64,000 nucleotides of DNA from Bacteroidetes bacterium RIFCSPLOWO2_12_FULL_37_12. Its GTDB lineage: Bacteria; Bacteroidota; Bacteroidia; 2-12-FULL-37-12. A program made the position numbers and the translations under genes. The number at the start of each line of letters is the position of its first letter. Position 1 is the first letter of the stretch. The notes below the pieces were generated by a model. It ran no database searches. It worked only from the letters and a program-made list of their open reading frames with translations, and was not told the origin of the DNA. Location: contig MEPC01000024.1 of the NCBI GenBank assembly GCA_001769655.1, forward strand, positions 141,572 to 205,571, written 5' to 3'. Shown in pieces: positions 18,045 through 56,885 of the stretch.

Positions 18045-18827
18045 TTATTTTTTTCTCAGAATTTCCACCATAGAATTAATAATCGCCACGAAGTCATTAG
18101 AATTCAATGAAGCGCCGCCGATCAATCCACCGTCTATGTCAGTACACGAAAATAAAGAATATGCATTTTCCGGTTTTACGCTCCCGCCATAAAGGATTGG
18201 AATTTTTTCAGCAATATCATCTTTAAATTTCAACGCCACTTGCGTCCGAATGAACCTATGCATTTCCTGAGCTTGTTCGGGAGTGGCATTTACTCCGGTT
18301 CCGATAGCCCAAACCGGTTCATAAGCAATCACTATTTTAATAATCTCTTCTTCATCCAACGAAAAAATAGTTTCTTCGAGTTGGTTTTTAATAATATCAT
18401 AATGAGATGCTTCATTTCTTTCTGATAATGTTTCCCCACAACAATAAACCGGGGTTAATCCATTTTGCAAAGCCACTTTAATTTTTTCAGAAAGGAGAGA
18501 ATTATCCTCGTGAAAATACATTCGTCTTTCGCTATGACCGATTATCACATGATTTGCACCGGTTGATTTGATCATAGCAGGTGACACTTCCCCTGTAAAA
18601 GCACCGTTGTTTTTATAGTAACAATTTTGCGCAGAGATAGAAATGAACCGGTAATCGGAAGTTAAGGCGGATGCCATTCCCAGCAATGGAAAAGGAGGTG
18701 CAAGAATAATTTGCAGGTTTTCGTGCTGTAATTTTCCGGCTGACTTCAGTATTTCCTCAATGAGAACGATACCTTCCTGAACGGTCTTATTCATTTTCCA
18801 GTTGCCGGCAATGATTTTTGTGCGCAT
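18045..18827 (-). CDS. tpiA: Triosephosphate isomerase
   Basis: Interconverts dihydroxyacetone phosphate and glyceraldehyde-3-phosphate in glycolysis. 260 residues. KIIAGNWKMNKT at the N-terminus carries the substrate lysine, VIIGHSERR the catalytic histidine, and IAYEPVWAIGTG the catalytic glutamate; ILYGGSVKPEN and DGGLIGGASL form the phosphate site. It lies 47 bases behind the alternative glmU gene on the same strand, with a TGGTCATT stutter repeat in the gap. Complete and ordinary. Confidence 0.97.
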   Translation of the reverse strand: MRTKIIAGNWKMNKTVQEGIVLIEEILKSAGKLQHENLQIILAPPFPLLGMASALTSDYRFISISAQNCYYKNNGAFTGEVSPAMIKSTGANHVIIGHSERRMYFHEDNSLLSEKIKVALQNGLTPVYCCGETLSERNEASHYDIIKNQLEETIFSLDEEEIIKIVIAYEPVWAIGTGVNATPEQAQEMHRFIRTQVALKFKDDIAEKIPILYGGSVKPENAYSLFSCTDIDGGLIGGASLNSNDFVAIINSMVEILRKK

Positions 18828-18835
18828 GGGAATTA

Positions 18836-18890
18836 GAAATTGGTCATTGGTTATTGGTCATTAGTCATTGGAAATTAGTCGTTGGTCATT
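18836..18890. repeat. TTGGTCATTGG stutter repeat
   Basis: Five or so near-copies of TTGGTCATTRG / TTAGTCATTGG fill the gap between the alternative glmU and tpiA. The complement (AATGACCAATGACTAAT) appears at 47590-47606. Confidence 0.7.
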
Positions 18891-22138: not shown

Positions 22139-24748
22139 ATGTCTGACAAAGAAACTCCGCTGATGAAACAATACAACCGGATTAAGCAGGCGCATCCGGG
22201 TGCGTTATTACTTTTCAGGGTAGGTGATTTTTATGAAACCTTCGGCGAAGATGCTATTCGTGCAAGCAAAATTTTAGGAATCGTTCTTACCCGCCGCGCA
22301 AATGGCGCCGCTTCGTTCGTTGAATTAGCCGGGTTCCCTCATCATGCCCTGGACTCCTATCTTCCTAAATTGATTCGCGCCGGAGAACGGGTGGCTGTAT
22401 GCGACCAGCTCGAAGATCCCAAAATGGCAAAAACCATTGTAAAAAGAGGCGTGACAGAATTAGTGACACCCGGAGTTTGTTTTAATGATAAGGTGTTGGA
22501 TCAGAAACAAAATAATTATCTCGCCGGCATTCATATCGGGAATGAAATTTTTGGAATAGCATTTCTGGATGTTTCCACCGGTGAGTTTTCAATTTCACAG
22601 GGAAATAAAAATTATATTGAAAAACTGATACAAAGTTTTAATCCTTCAGAGATTATTTATCCTAAATCGAAAAAAAACATTTTCCAGGAAATTTTTTCTG
22701 ATAAATATTATTCCTATCCTGTGGATGAATGGGCTTTCAGTTACGATTATGCGGTGGAAACCATCACTCAGCATTTTTCTGTATTGTCCTTGAAAGGTTT
22801 TGGAATCGAGGAATTGCATGAAGGAATTGTGGCGGCTGGAGTGCTTATACATTACCTGAAGGAAACACAACACAATGAATTGAATCATATCACAGGCATT
22901 CAACGTCTCGAAGAAGAACAATATGTATGGCTTGATAAATTCACCCAGCGCAATCTGGAGATTTTACATTCTCCTTTTGAGGGGGGAGTGCCCTTGGTTC
23001 AGGTGATGGATAAAACAGTTACCCCTATGGGAGCCAGAACCTTGAGGCGTTGGCTCACCATGCCTCTGAAGGATTTAGTTTCTGTTCAGGAACGGTTAAA
23101 CGCGGTTGAAAATTTTACGCTCGATACCGATTTACTTTTGAATTTTCAGCAAATCATGAAACCCATCGGCGACATGGAACGATTGATTTCAAAAGTGGCA
23201 ATCCGGCGCATATCACCCAGAGAATTAAATCAACTTAAAAGAGCCATGCAGGCAGTGCCACTTTTAAAAGTTAACCTGCAAAAAAATTCCACCGCTGTTC
23301 TACTCAAAAGAATGGAAGAACAACTTAATCCCTGTGAGAGTATTCGCGATAAGATAGAAAGGGAATTAAAACCAGATCCTCCCCTATTAACCAATCAGGG
23401 AGAAATGATAAAGGATGGGATAAATCATGAATTGGATGAATTGAGAAAAATTGCTTATTCCGGAAAAGAATATTTACTTCAGATACAGGAAACCGAAGCA
23501 AAAAAAACCGCCATTCCTTCTTTGAAAATTTCCTATAACCGTGTTTTTGGGTATTACCTCGAAGTAACCAATCCTCATAAGAATAAAGTACCTGCCGAAT
23601 GGATACGGAAACAAACCCTCACCAATGCAGAAAGATACATTACTCCGGAACTGAAAGAATACGAGGAGAAAATTCTCAACGCAGAAGAAAAAATTTTTGA
23701 AATTGAAGCCCGGCTGTTTAACGAGCTGGTATCTGTAGTGGCACAATTTACCTTGCAAATTCAGCAGAACTCCTTGCTTATCGGAATGTTGGATGTTCTT
23801 TGCTCTTATGCCGAAGTGGCGCTGAAAAATAAATTTTCAAAACCGGTTATAGAAAATTCTACCGTTATACACATTAAGCAGGGTCGTCATCCGGTCATTG
23901 AAGACCGCTTACCGCTTGGAGAATCTTACGTGCCGAATGATGTGTATCTGGATGATGACCATACCCAGATTATGATTATCACCGGTCCCAACATGTCAGG
24001 GAAATCCGCCTTGCTCAGGCAAACGGCATTAATTGTTTTGCTGGCACAAACAGGAAGTTTTGTGCCGGCAGAGAGTGCCACTATCGGGCTGGTTGACAAA
24101 ATATTTACACGGGTAGGCGCTTCCGATAATCTTTCTCTCGGGGAATCCACGTTTATGGTGGAAATGAATGAAACGGCAAGCATTTTAAACAATGTGAGCA
24201 ATCACAGTTTGGTTCTGCTCGACGAAATCGGAAGAGGGACAAGCACCTACGATGGGATTTCCATTGCCTGGGCATTGGTAGAATACCTGCACAATCACCC
24301 GAAGGGTAGGGCTAAGACATTATTCGCCACTCATTATCACGAGTTGAGCCAACTGGCGGACGAATTAACGCGCGTAAAAAATTTCAGGGTATCGGTGAGA
24401 GAGCGTGAGAATAAAATAATTTTTGTGAGAAAATTAGAGCCGGGAAGTTCCGAACACAGTTTCGGTATTCATGTGGCACGAATGGCAGGAATGCCGGATA
24501 TGGTAATACGGAGAGCGGAGGAAATCTTACATCATCTTGAAAAAGACCGCATGCATGAAAAGACGAAGAAAAAAATTTCTGAGATCCCCGTTTCCAATTT
24601 TCAGCTAAGTTTATTCAATGCGGAAAATCCGGTGTATGAAAAAATCAAAAAAATTCTTGAATCGCTGGATACGAATGCGATTACGCCGGTGGAGGCGTTG
24701 CTGAAGCTGGTGGAGTTGAAGGGGCTGGTGAAGGGGGAGGGCAATTAG
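22139..24748 (+). CDS. mutS: DNA mismatch repair protein MutS
   Basis: Recognises mismatches and recruits MutL. 869 residues, the MutS1 length. The mismatch-reading F-x-E is in VGDFYETFGED (F31, E33). The Walker A is GPNMSGKSALLRQ (about residue 616) and the Walker B VLLDEIGRGTSTYDG (about 690), followed by FATHYHELSQL. The C-terminal helix-turn-helix GSSEHSFGIHVARMAG.P is present. The extreme C-terminus ends after a dimerisation-like segment. Monocistronic, with a divergent promoter shared with the methyltransferase gene. It contains several of the GTGNCAC palindromes (22463, 23255, 24075). Confidence 0.98.
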   Translation: MSDKETPLMKQYNRIKQAHPGALLLFRVGDFYETFGEDAIRASKILGIVLTRRANGAASFVELAGFPHHALDSYLPKLIRAGERVAVCDQLEDPKMAKTIVKRGVTELVTPGVCFNDKVLDQKQNNYLAGIHIGNEIFGIAFLDVSTGEFSISQGNKNYIEKLIQSFNPSEIIYPKSKKNIFQEIFSDKYYSYPVDEWAFSYDYAVETITQHFSVLSLKGFGIEELHEGIVAAGVLIHYLKETQHNELNHITGIQRLEEEQYVWLDKFTQRNLEILHSPFEGGVPLVQVMDKTVTPMGARTLRRWLTMPLKDLVSVQERLNAVENFTLDTDLLLNFQQIMKPIGDMERLISKVAIRRISPRELNQLKRAMQAVPLLKVNLQKNSTAVLLKRMEEQLNPCESIRDKIERELKPDPPLLTNQGEMIKDGINHELDELRKIAYSGKEYLLQIQETEAKKTAIPSLKISYNRVFGYYLEVTNPHKNKVPAEWIRKQTLTNAERYITPELKEYEEKILNAEEKIFEIEARLFNELVSVVAQFTLQIQQNSLLIGMLDVLCSYAEVALKNKFSKPVIENSTVIHIKQGRHPVIEDRLPLGESYVPNDVYLDDDHTQIMIITGPNMSGKSALLRQTALIVLLAQTGSFVPAESATIGLVDKIFTRVGASDNLSLGESTFMVEMNETASILNNVSNHSLVLLDEIGRGTSTYDGISIAWALVEYLHNHPKGRAKTLFATHYHELSQLADELTRVKNFRVSVRERENKIIFVRKLEPGSSEHSFGIHVARMAGMPDMVIRRAEEILHHLEKDRMHEKTKKKISEIPVSNFQLSLFNAENPVYEKIKKILESLDTNAITPVEALLKLVELKGLVKGEGN

Positions 24749-24834: not shown

Positions 24835-26130
24835 TCACTGCTTCATAATCTTTCCTATACTAGCGTTTCCGGAGCTTGTGCTGTATTTGTATAAATACAA
24901 ACCCGCAGGAAGATGCTCAATTTTTATAGTCACAGATGAACGAACTTGCTTTGAAAAAACTTTTTTCCCTGTGAGGTCCAGTATTTCAAATAAACCCTGC
25001 TCATGAGGTGGAACCTTTAAAAAGATTTCACTTGCGGTAGGATTTGGAATAATTTGAACCAAAGGTTTTTCATGAATGAATTCTTTTACCCCGGGTTTGA
25101 TGGATAAATCCAAACGGGCAACTCTCATGATGGGTCTTCCGCCGGCTTCGGTAAAATTTCCTCCTATATACAATGAACTGTCAAAAACTATCATGGCAGA
25201 TACATAATCATTAACTCCGCCTCCTACTTCCTCCCATACCGTATCGTTCCAGCAGGCAATATTTCGTGCTTTGATTCCTCCTATGGAATCACCAACGCCC
25301 CCAACATATAATTTGTCATTATAAACTTCAATGGATTTAATACTGCTAAATTTGGCAAATTCATAATCCGCAGTTGTACTATCCATCCGACAAAGATATT
25401 CTCCAAAAGATGAATAAATTCTGTTTCTGAATATACAAAGGTTTGACCCATACCACCCTGGAGTTTTACCATATTGGTTTCCATCCCAAGCGACTAATCC
25501 ATCAACATGTAACGTACCACTGTTTACCCAATCAAATAGACCCCCTACAAGTAAAAAGCCATTATATTCTAAAAAAGCATTAACTCTTGGTGGATCAAAA
25601 CCGCTATATCTTACTCCACCACCAACATCTTTCCAAAGTGTATCATTCCATCTGGCAATATATTCTACTTTTTTGCCTCCAGCAGAATCAAAGGCGCCTC
25701 CCACATATAATTCATTTTTGTAAACTTCCATTTCCGATGACCAAGATGATGATGATAACCCTTTCCCCAGATGATTCCAGTTTGTACCATCCCAAGAGGC
25801 AATCCGATTTGAATATTTACCGTCAGAACAAAGAATTTCACCACCTAAAATAAGCTTGTTATTAAAAACGCATGCGGGTCCTATTCCACCTTTTGCAGAT
25901 ATACTCACTCTTTCCCAATCACTCCCGTTAAATTTTGCAAGACCATTCAAAGTATCTCCATTTCCATTTTTTTCAAATATACCCGTCGCATATAATTGAT
26001 TTTTATAAACAACAAATTCACTAACATATTTATTCAAACCAGAACCCACCGGTTGCCAACTCTGGGCGGATGTATATAAGATTGATAATTGCAATAAGAG
26101 ATAAAGAAAAATAATTTTTTTTGTTTTCAT
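24835..26130 (-). CDS. Secreted propeller-like protein with T9SS type A sorting domain
   Basis: 431 residues. The signal peptide is MKTKKIIFLYLLLQLSILYT followed by SAQS. The body has about seven repeats of the form 'YNDKLYVGG..D..GG....IA.WND..W..VGGGV', a beta-propeller/kelch-like arrangement. From about residue 350 a C-terminal domain begins PNPTASEIFLKV, with LFEILDLTGKKV and LPAGLYLYKY, the T9SS type A sorting signature that directs passage through the outer membrane and cell-surface attachment. Ligand unknown. It starts 12 bases after the GH16 gene on the same strand, so the two are probably cotranscribed and the state of the G tract could affect this gene too. Confidence 0.88.
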   Translation of the reverse strand: MKTKKIIFLYLLLQLSILYTSAQSWQPVGSGLNKYVSEFVVYKNQLYATGIFEKNGNGDTLNGLAKFNGSDWERVSISAKGGIGPACVFNNKLILGGEILCSDGKYSNRIASWDGTNWNHLGKGLSSSSWSSEMEVYKNELYVGGAFDSAGGKKVEYIARWNDTLWKDVGGGVRYSGFDPPRVNAFLEYNGFLLVGGLFDWVNSGTLHVDGLVAWDGNQYGKTPGWYGSNLCIFRNRIYSSFGEYLCRMDSTTADYEFAKFSSIKSIEVYNDKLYVGGVGDSIGGIKARNIACWNDTVWEEVGGGVNDYVSAMIVFDSSLYIGGNFTEAGGRPIMRVARLDLSIKPGVKEFIHEKPLVQIIPNPTASEIFLKVPPHEQGLFEILDLTGKKVFSKQVRSSVTIKIEHLPAGLYLYKYSTSSGNASIGKIMKQ

Positions 26131-26142
26131 CGTGTTTAGTAG

Positions 26143-28181
26143 TTATTCTAATTTCACCCAATCCACTTCAATTGCCTGATCTGTAGCCGGAAAAGGAATA
26201 TTTTGAAGTTCATATCCTTTATTATTGACCCAGGATTCGTCTTTCCAATTATTACTAAATCGTATTGCCATTTCTACATCGGGTATTTTTACATCCTCTG
26301 AAGTAAATACTGCACTTTCAATGCCGTCAATATAAATTACCACTCTGTCGTAATCCCAGTCAATCGTATAAATATGCGGAGTATTCAGAAATGATTTGTC
26401 AGTATCCCAGTAATGCACTACACCTGTTATATAACCGGTAATAACGCCATCTGCATTCTTTTGAGGAGCTACCACTCGTTGAAAAGTATATCCGTTATTT
26501 GTCCACATAGGACCCCGATAAAAGTTTTCAATGCCATTTAAGCTATAAACATGCGGTCCGCAATTATAGTCAATAATTCCCAACCCCACTGAAATATTGC
26601 CCGGAGTATTAGAAGGGTTTATTTCAATGTCAATTTCGTATAGTTGTTTGTTATCATTCATAACTCCGCCGTTAAGGCAATGATGATGATAAGAAATGGG
26701 GATACCACCATGGTGAAATTCATACAACCAAAAAGCGCTAAAAAGCCCGTTTGGGAGATTATTGGTATTTAACAATTGTGGAAATTTTATTTTAGCGCTT
26801 ATTTTTCCATATAAAAACGAGCGACCCTGAACTCCGCCAATACTACGATCATAATTGCTAAACGTAACAAGTGTACTATTAATTTTGTAATCAAAATCAT
26901 TAACAAAAAGAGTAGAAGATGGTTGACCCGGATTGATTAATCTGAGAAATGATTCTGAAACATTAATATTTTTATAAGAAGATGCATTAAAACAATATTG
27001 GTAATCAGTTTGGAACGGGTGTTCAGCATTAATAGGTAAAAACCTGCGTGAGTCAACTACAGGAATGTTGGAATATGTATCATATTCCGCTTGCGTATAA
27101 TTGTCTGCCGTAACTATTACGTTTGGGACTACGGAATGAGGGAAAGTAGCAAGTTTTGTACTAGCATTAGGATACCAGTTCCAAACAAAAACATTTCCAT
27201 TATAAAGGTCATTGTCTGACAAATTATCAATAACGGCATTTTCATTATTAAAATCTTCATTCAGCAAGGTGAGGTTTAAACCATGGAAAATGGGCTTGGC
27301 AAGAACTCTCCGGCGGATAACCGTATGCTCTTTATTGGTATAATAATCTATAGGGTCGCCAACCGGTTGTTCAATTAAACTGCGGCGGTCGGTAACCACC
27401 AACAAAAAATCGTACAGTCCCGGTCTGGGGTTTGCAAAAACATTAAAGGGCCAACCATCTGGGTATTGGTTCCATGGGTCGTGTTTGATTTTATAACGAA
27501 TATTAAAAATAGTTCCCTGACCGAAGGGGTCATCCACCTTAATTTTTTCCTGTTTTAGCGTTATTTCCAGAATATCAGAAGCCCCTGTAAATAAATAATT
27601 TGTATTAGTGGTTTTATAGACAGCTTGTCCTCTCCTTGACTGGTAAAAAACTCTGGCGTAGAGCGTAACGGAACGAACCGAACGGTCTCGGATGTACATT
27701 GAAAACAGCCCTTCAAAGAATTTATTATCTTCGGGCGGAACATCTCTTAAATCGTGTGTTATGCCATTATTATATAAAGTAAAAGTGACTGGGTCAAGCT
27801 TTTTATATATAACGTCTTCTTCATCTATTACCCATTCTAAATATTTATAATAGTTTAATTCCTGAATTTTCACAACCTGAAGTCCGAAGGGTTGAAACCA
27901 TTCCAAAGCTACTGTATTTGAAAGAGGAGTTTCTAGGATATAACGGTTGTGGTCGGGGAGCTCAGGCGGTTTTACATTTTCCATTGCAAAAGGGTTGGGT
28001 TTCTCGCCGGTAAATTCTTTAAAAACTGCGGGGTCGTGGTTCAGATCTTTTGCAACCCTTAAATTTTTACCCCCCCCCCCCCCCGAGCTTCAATTACATC
28101 TTCGGGATTTTGGCAGGAAGGAATCGTAAGCATTACACTCACTATAAGAGCAGGAGAAATTTTATGCAGTGGCATTTTCAT
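26143..28181 (-). CDS. GH16-like lipoprotein interrupted by a 15-base G tract (phase-variable or frameshifted)
   Basis: The main frame (26143-28089) encodes a glycoside hydrolase family 16 domain in its second half: YGKISAKIKFP, GLFSAFWLYEFHHGG and the catalytic E-I-D-I-E (bases near 26625-26640). It would hydrolyse a beta-1,3/1,4-glucan or galactan. The first in-frame ATG (27984) yields no signal peptide. In another frame, ATG 28181 opens a lipoprotein signal (MKMPLHKISPALIVSVMLTI, then P-S-C) that runs into G15 (C15 at 28070-28084) and stops shortly after. One added G, or two lost, joins the frames as ...E-A-R-G5-K-N-L. I therefore take 28181 as the true start. The tract may be a contingency locus or an assembly error. 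Confidence 0.75.
28070..28084. repeat. Homopolymer C15/G15 inside the GH16 lipoprotein gene
   Basis: Fifteen consecutive C on the plus strand (G on the coding strand), about 13 codons after the lipidated cysteine. Its length sets whether the signal peptide and the enzyme are in one frame; 16 or 13 would be in frame, 15 is out. Confidence 0.95.
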
Positions 28182-56834: not shown

Positions 56835-56885
56835 GTGAATAAATGGTTAAATGGTTAAAATGTTAAATGGTTAAATGGTTAAACT
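56835..56885. repeat. GGTTAAATGGTTAAAATG stutter repeat
   Basis: Five near-copies of TGGTTAAA in the 147-bp gap behind the small lipoprotein gene, touching its stop codon. The rest of the gap is A/T-rich and unremarkable. Confidence 0.65.

Follow-up and report, generated by a model that had tools for sequence, protein, structure and literature searches.

The locus lies on the reverse strand of the window, by which we mean the whole 64,000-nucleotide stretch of contig MEPC01000024.1 of Bacteroidetes bacterium RIFCSPLOWO2_12_FULL_37_12 that was analysed. A lipoprotein signal peptide and a GH16 enzyme frame are separated there by exactly 15 G on the coding strand (window 28084-28070; C15 on the forward strand), and a gene for a secreted protein starts 12 nt past the GH16 stop (Table 1). 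From ATG 28181 the signal frame reads MKMPLHKISPALIVSVMLTIPSC followed by QNPEDVIEARGGGGVKI and a stop; past the lipobox cysteine come nine residues, QNPEDVIEA, then an arginine and a poly-glycine stretch before the frame ends. The cysteine in MKMPLHKISPALIVSVMLTIPSC was found by inspection and identifies a lipoprotein signal peptide. The sequence that it opens, CQNPEDV, contains two adjacent acidic residues at +5/+6 and does not match C-X-K-(D/E)2, the consensus after the cysteine for lipoprotein export in Capnocytophaga (PMC5080379), which differs among families and may not be that of the host. The GH16 lipoprotein may be exposed at the cell surface.

Upstream, a TGA closes the GH16 frame, which is open from 28089 to 26143. 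It belongs to GH16 by its match to Pfam Glyco_hydro_16 (PF00722, E=3e-9; 37 bits against a curated cut-off of 22) and carries the E-x-D-x-(x)-E catalytic motif as EIDIE. Past the tract, 641 codons contain 0 stops where about 40 are expected by composition, and the 648 codons of the frame have no further defect, the tract being the sole lesion. Comparison with solved structures gave weak GH16 matches only, and the AlphaFold model of the window protein (mean pLDDT 36.5) was unusable.

The two frames are separate at 15 G and fuse at 13 or 16, so that one G added or two Gs lost would join them. The original prediction had described a lipoprotein signal split from the GH16 frame by fifteen G, a TAA ending the signal frame at that length, clean fusion at 13 or 16 G, and a T9SS gene 12 bases downstream; all of this stood, coordinates included, when the frames were re-read and the downstream product was matched to NCBIfam. 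By its anatomy the locus is a candidate SSR phase-variable gene: a long simple repeat lies within the reading frame, beyond chance expectation (G15), and its length decides whether the two halves of a gene with no other defect are read in one frame.

Table 1. Features of the GH16 locus, in window coordinates
Feature	Position	Strand	Basis
G15 homopolymer, proposed frame switch	28070..28084	-	sequence; 0.0002-0.004 expected per genome
Signal-peptide frame, 40-aa leader (MKMPLHKISPALIVSVMLTIPSC then QNPEDVIEARGGGGVKI), TAA shortly past the tract; predicted OFF-state product	28059..28181	-	
Lipidated-cysteine codon, lipobox I-P-S-C	28113..28115	-	sequence, lipobox by inspection
GH16 enzyme frame, open over 648 codons; N-terminal part of unknown fold, C-terminal GH16 domain	26143..28089	-	
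GH16 catalytic motif E-I-D-I-E	26623..26637	-	E, D, E invariant across seven homologues
Secreted protein, C-terminal T9SS sorting domain	24835..26130	-	NCBIfam E=2e-11

Paralogue and distant homologues

A paralogue of the GH16 gene without any tract lies on contig C33 (L050:6402-8519, reverse strand). It runs in a single frame from its lipoprotein signal (SSCKKSEDVID) on through NLRKGDASLETDPNVFNDFTGSEPNPF, and these two segments match PSCQNPEDVIE and NLRVAKDLNHDPAVFKEFTGEKPNPF of the window, one on either side of the tract. The 16 nt directly upstream of the tract (CCGAAGATGTAATTGA) are identical in the window and the paralogue. Because both flanks match the paralogue, we ruled out that the window tract is a poly-G read artefact. 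The GH16/T9SS gene pair recurs on C33, where the genes overlap by 17 nt; a search for the pair in named genomes gave no match.

Elsewhere in the class, a GH16 homologue is present in 40 of the 294 other Bacteroidia genomes searched. Among 29 homologue N-termini read, 28 have a lipoprotein signal in one frame with the enzyme (26 scored automatically, and L088 and L097 by eye), and these homologue genes hold no G/C run longer than 7. GH16 lipoproteins of other Bacteroidia (L076-L105) share with the window protein the lipoprotein signal, a length of about 650-700 aa, a C-terminal GH16 domain and E-x-D-x-E, but have no G/C run longer than 7 and are about 24% identical to it. Since the paralogue is continuous and all but one of the homologues read are joined, sequence comparison shows that signal peptide and GH16 domain derive from one ancestral gene, broken exactly at the tract. 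The homologue N-termini thus point to an ancestral product that was a lipid-anchored GH16 enzyme, and to a window gene broken at the tract alone.

Could the frameshift be a recent loss-of-function mutation at a hot spot, with no maintained switch? The GH16 family can decay in this genome, since the C33 paralogue carries two in-frame TGA toward its 3' part. A fragment of a second GH16 3' end adjoins a duplicate of the T9SS gene, and this region (L050 3265-8519) is a decaying tandem duplication. TGA recoding in the paralogue was ruled out, as 16 of 43 long ORFs of the window terminate in TGA. The window frame, however, is otherwise intact over its whole length and retains the catalytic motif, and we regard a recent pseudogene as quite improbable. 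An array of a 16-nt repeat, immediately 5' of the paralogue on C33 (L050 8618-8751), might have been a second contingency element; we set this idea aside, since tandem arrays with short units (7, 8, 14, 16 and 21 nt) are common across the genome, for example at window 18827-18890 and 56840-56883.

Long G/C runs and a poly-C family in the same genome

How unusual is a run of 15? Extrapolated to the whole genome of 3.94 Mb, Markov models of order 1-5, built on the run-length counts of the window with the tract removed, give an expectation of 0.0002-0.004 for G/C runs that reach 15; the longest that the window holds apart from the tract is one of 7. A look for other G/C tracts of at least 9 near lipoprotein starts had been suggested as a check on the switch; the whole genome holds 13 G/C runs of that length. 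A G13 run lies in frame inside a lipoprotein gene (contig C39). The genome is enriched in G/C runs of at least 11, with 7 observed against 0.1-1.0 expected; in a comparison across the class, 63 of 99 genomes have no G/C run of that length. A C12 run (L048 5028-5039) directly precedes the start codon of a gene for a TPR protein that also has an adenylate cyclase domain.

The poly-C family is a multi-copy family of secreted proteins (probe L049:5065-7044) in which the ATG is followed by a short stretch, the poly-C and a signal peptide ending in FSQNDG. Its copies are L041, L042, L043, L049, L072, L073 and L074, on contigs C1, C3, C5, C28, C23, C37 and C24, respectively; 7-12 Cs or an ACAAT repeat separate the start codon from the signal peptide, and the frame varies among the copies. 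With nine Cs the C1 copy is in frame. The C23 copy, with seven, is out of frame, its start codon leading to an early stop and its signal peptide lying in a different frame; the immediate flanks of the run are identical in these two copies on both sides (TTTCAATTTAC and GAAAATTTAGACAACTAAAG). The C run alone does not account for the C23 frame, because that leader has further insertions elsewhere. Eleven Cs are found in the C3 copy, out of frame, and twelve in the C5 copy, whose frame is uncertain owing to an N gap; the ten Cs of the C28 copy end at a gap, contig C37 starts just beyond the tract position, and the C24 copy (L074) has 5.4 units of the pentanucleotide ACAAT at the tract position and is in frame. 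As far as differences between paralogues, rather than alleles, can speak to it, the family shows that such tracts alter length in this lineage.

Tract lengths in this genome are unreliable, because three tracts abut N gaps and one copy begins at a contig edge, and in so long a homopolymer the assembled length of 15, the OFF length, cannot be trusted. The true tract could be 13 or 16, the gene normally intact and fixed, and the frameshift an artefact of homopolymer assembly. Long homopolymers are error-prone, and artefacts do occur among the tracts of such genomes: one in another genome of the class (L254) resembles adapter sequence. An error of length nevertheless leaves the excess of long G/C runs unexplained, and the seven-C copy on C23, short enough for reliable reading, is still out of frame. 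Even at a true length of 13 or 16, the tract should be hypermutable. We consider it rather unlikely that the frameshift is an error of length.

The RNA polymerase might instead slip on the G run, in which case a fixed out-of-frame gene would yield some full-length product and the tract would tune its amount. Homopolymers of at least 8 nt can be recoding sites, although the known slippage runs are characteristically A or T (PMC3711429). Transcriptional slippage is compatible with a frame that stays open though out of frame; the length differences among paralogues and the pentanucleotide repeat at a like position argue for change at the DNA level, and we give slippage of the polymerase very little credence.

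Tracts in other Bacteroidia

We read 41 tracts of 11 or more in other genomes of the class; 6 of them fall, in long open frames, inside a signal-like hydrophobic stretch or in the interval that separates it from the start codon, and three of these six are out of frame. The same layout was found for 18 of 757 control runs of 4-6 at the same loci (Fisher p=0.0009; p=0.013 against control runs of 5-6 alone), an enrichment that is suggestive only because the rule was chosen post hoc: it was fixed after examples had been seen, and the window tract, L220 and the family of the host genome fall outside its limits. G/C runs of 11-12 stand before or inside the signal peptide at L220, L233, L235, L237, L243, L245 and L256; the genes concerned encode long secreted or TonB-receptor-like proteins in other Bacteroidia, and several are out of frame. 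It is possible, and we suggest it tentatively, that G/C homopolymers at the export signal, whether they separate the signal peptide from the start codon, interrupt that peptide or lie just past the lipobox, are a recurrent phase-variation architecture in several Bacteroidia families, controlling secreted and TonB-linked surface proteins beside the DNA inversions of Bacteroides.

Discussion

What does the G15 tract do? We favor, with a probability of roughly 0.6, the view that the GH16 gene is a slipped-strand, phase-variable contingency gene that was assembled in its OFF state. A hypermutable G tract would lie about nine codons past the lipidated cysteine of a GH16 lipoprotein gene, and slipped-strand mispairing during replication would add or remove Gs, bringing the enzyme into or out of the signal frame. 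With 13 or 16 G, the cell would make the GH16 enzyme in lipid-anchored form, with a short linker of glycines (ON); with 15 G, the 40-aa lipopeptide would be made alone (OFF). In the OFF state the enzyme frame could be started only internally, its first ATG being at 27984, and without a signal peptide. The loss of upstream translation could then lower translation of the downstream T9SS gene, a polar effect that the original prediction had raised.

Of the slipped-strand layout originally predicted, two parts were borne out, namely the single ancestral gene and the presence of similar tracts in other genes of the genome, with varying length and frame in paralogous copies of another family. From this layout we infer the switching itself, that is, slippage at the GH16 locus in living cells and its reversibility, as well as the surface location and the polarity. 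Several other genes of the genome have comparable runs at a comparable position, so that random switching of such genes through tract slippage is probable in this bacterium. An uninterrupted mutS (window 22139-24748) adjoins the GH16/T9SS pair in convergent orientation; mismatch repair would influence tract stability. A comparison of MutS, with 62% as the best identity, assigned the genome no more closely than to Bacteroidota.

In Campylobacter jejuni, poly-G tracts of at least 8 switch genes (PMC6321876). The poly-G/C contingency genes of Campylobacter, Helicobacter and Neisseria resemble the window gene in having a G/C homopolymer in the 5' part of a gene with a surface function (PMC6321876; PMC2823697; PMC5953494), and here as there the frame is set by tract length and several such genes occur per genome. 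The window gene differs in its uncultured Bacteroidia host, in its longer tract (13-15 is rare in Campylobacter, PMC6321876) and in that its switching is deduced from the layout. The Gardnerella NanH3 sialidase, reported to be phase-variable by slipped-strand mispairing (cited in PMC11868660 and PMC10187134), is, like the GH16 protein, an exported carbohydrate-cleaving enzyme with a proposed slippage switch, but it belongs to another enzyme family and another phylum. Within the same class, surface and polysaccharide-use genes of Bacteroides likewise vary in phase, through invertible promoters and invertase-controlled loci (PMC8748976; PMC11868660); those systems switch by site-specific DNA inversion, whereas the window gene would do so by homopolymer slippage. 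A review of phase variation treats Bacteroides under invertase and inversion switches and gave no match for Flavobacterium, Capnocytophaga or Porphyromonas (PMC11868660), and we found no description of a homopolymer-slippage locus in Bacteroidota in the openly licensed literature.

Why, then, would one more poly-G gene matter? By analogy with poly-G contingency genes the mechanism would be one already known, and the interest would lie in the host, phase variation in Bacteroides being documented mostly as DNA inversion. If our reading is true, uncultured Bacteroidia would bet-hedge their displayed polysaccharide-degrading enzymes and secreted surface proteins by slippage, as host-adapted pathogens do. 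Frameshifts in the surface genes of metagenome-assembled genomes may, in that case, mark genes that are switched off, and not errors.
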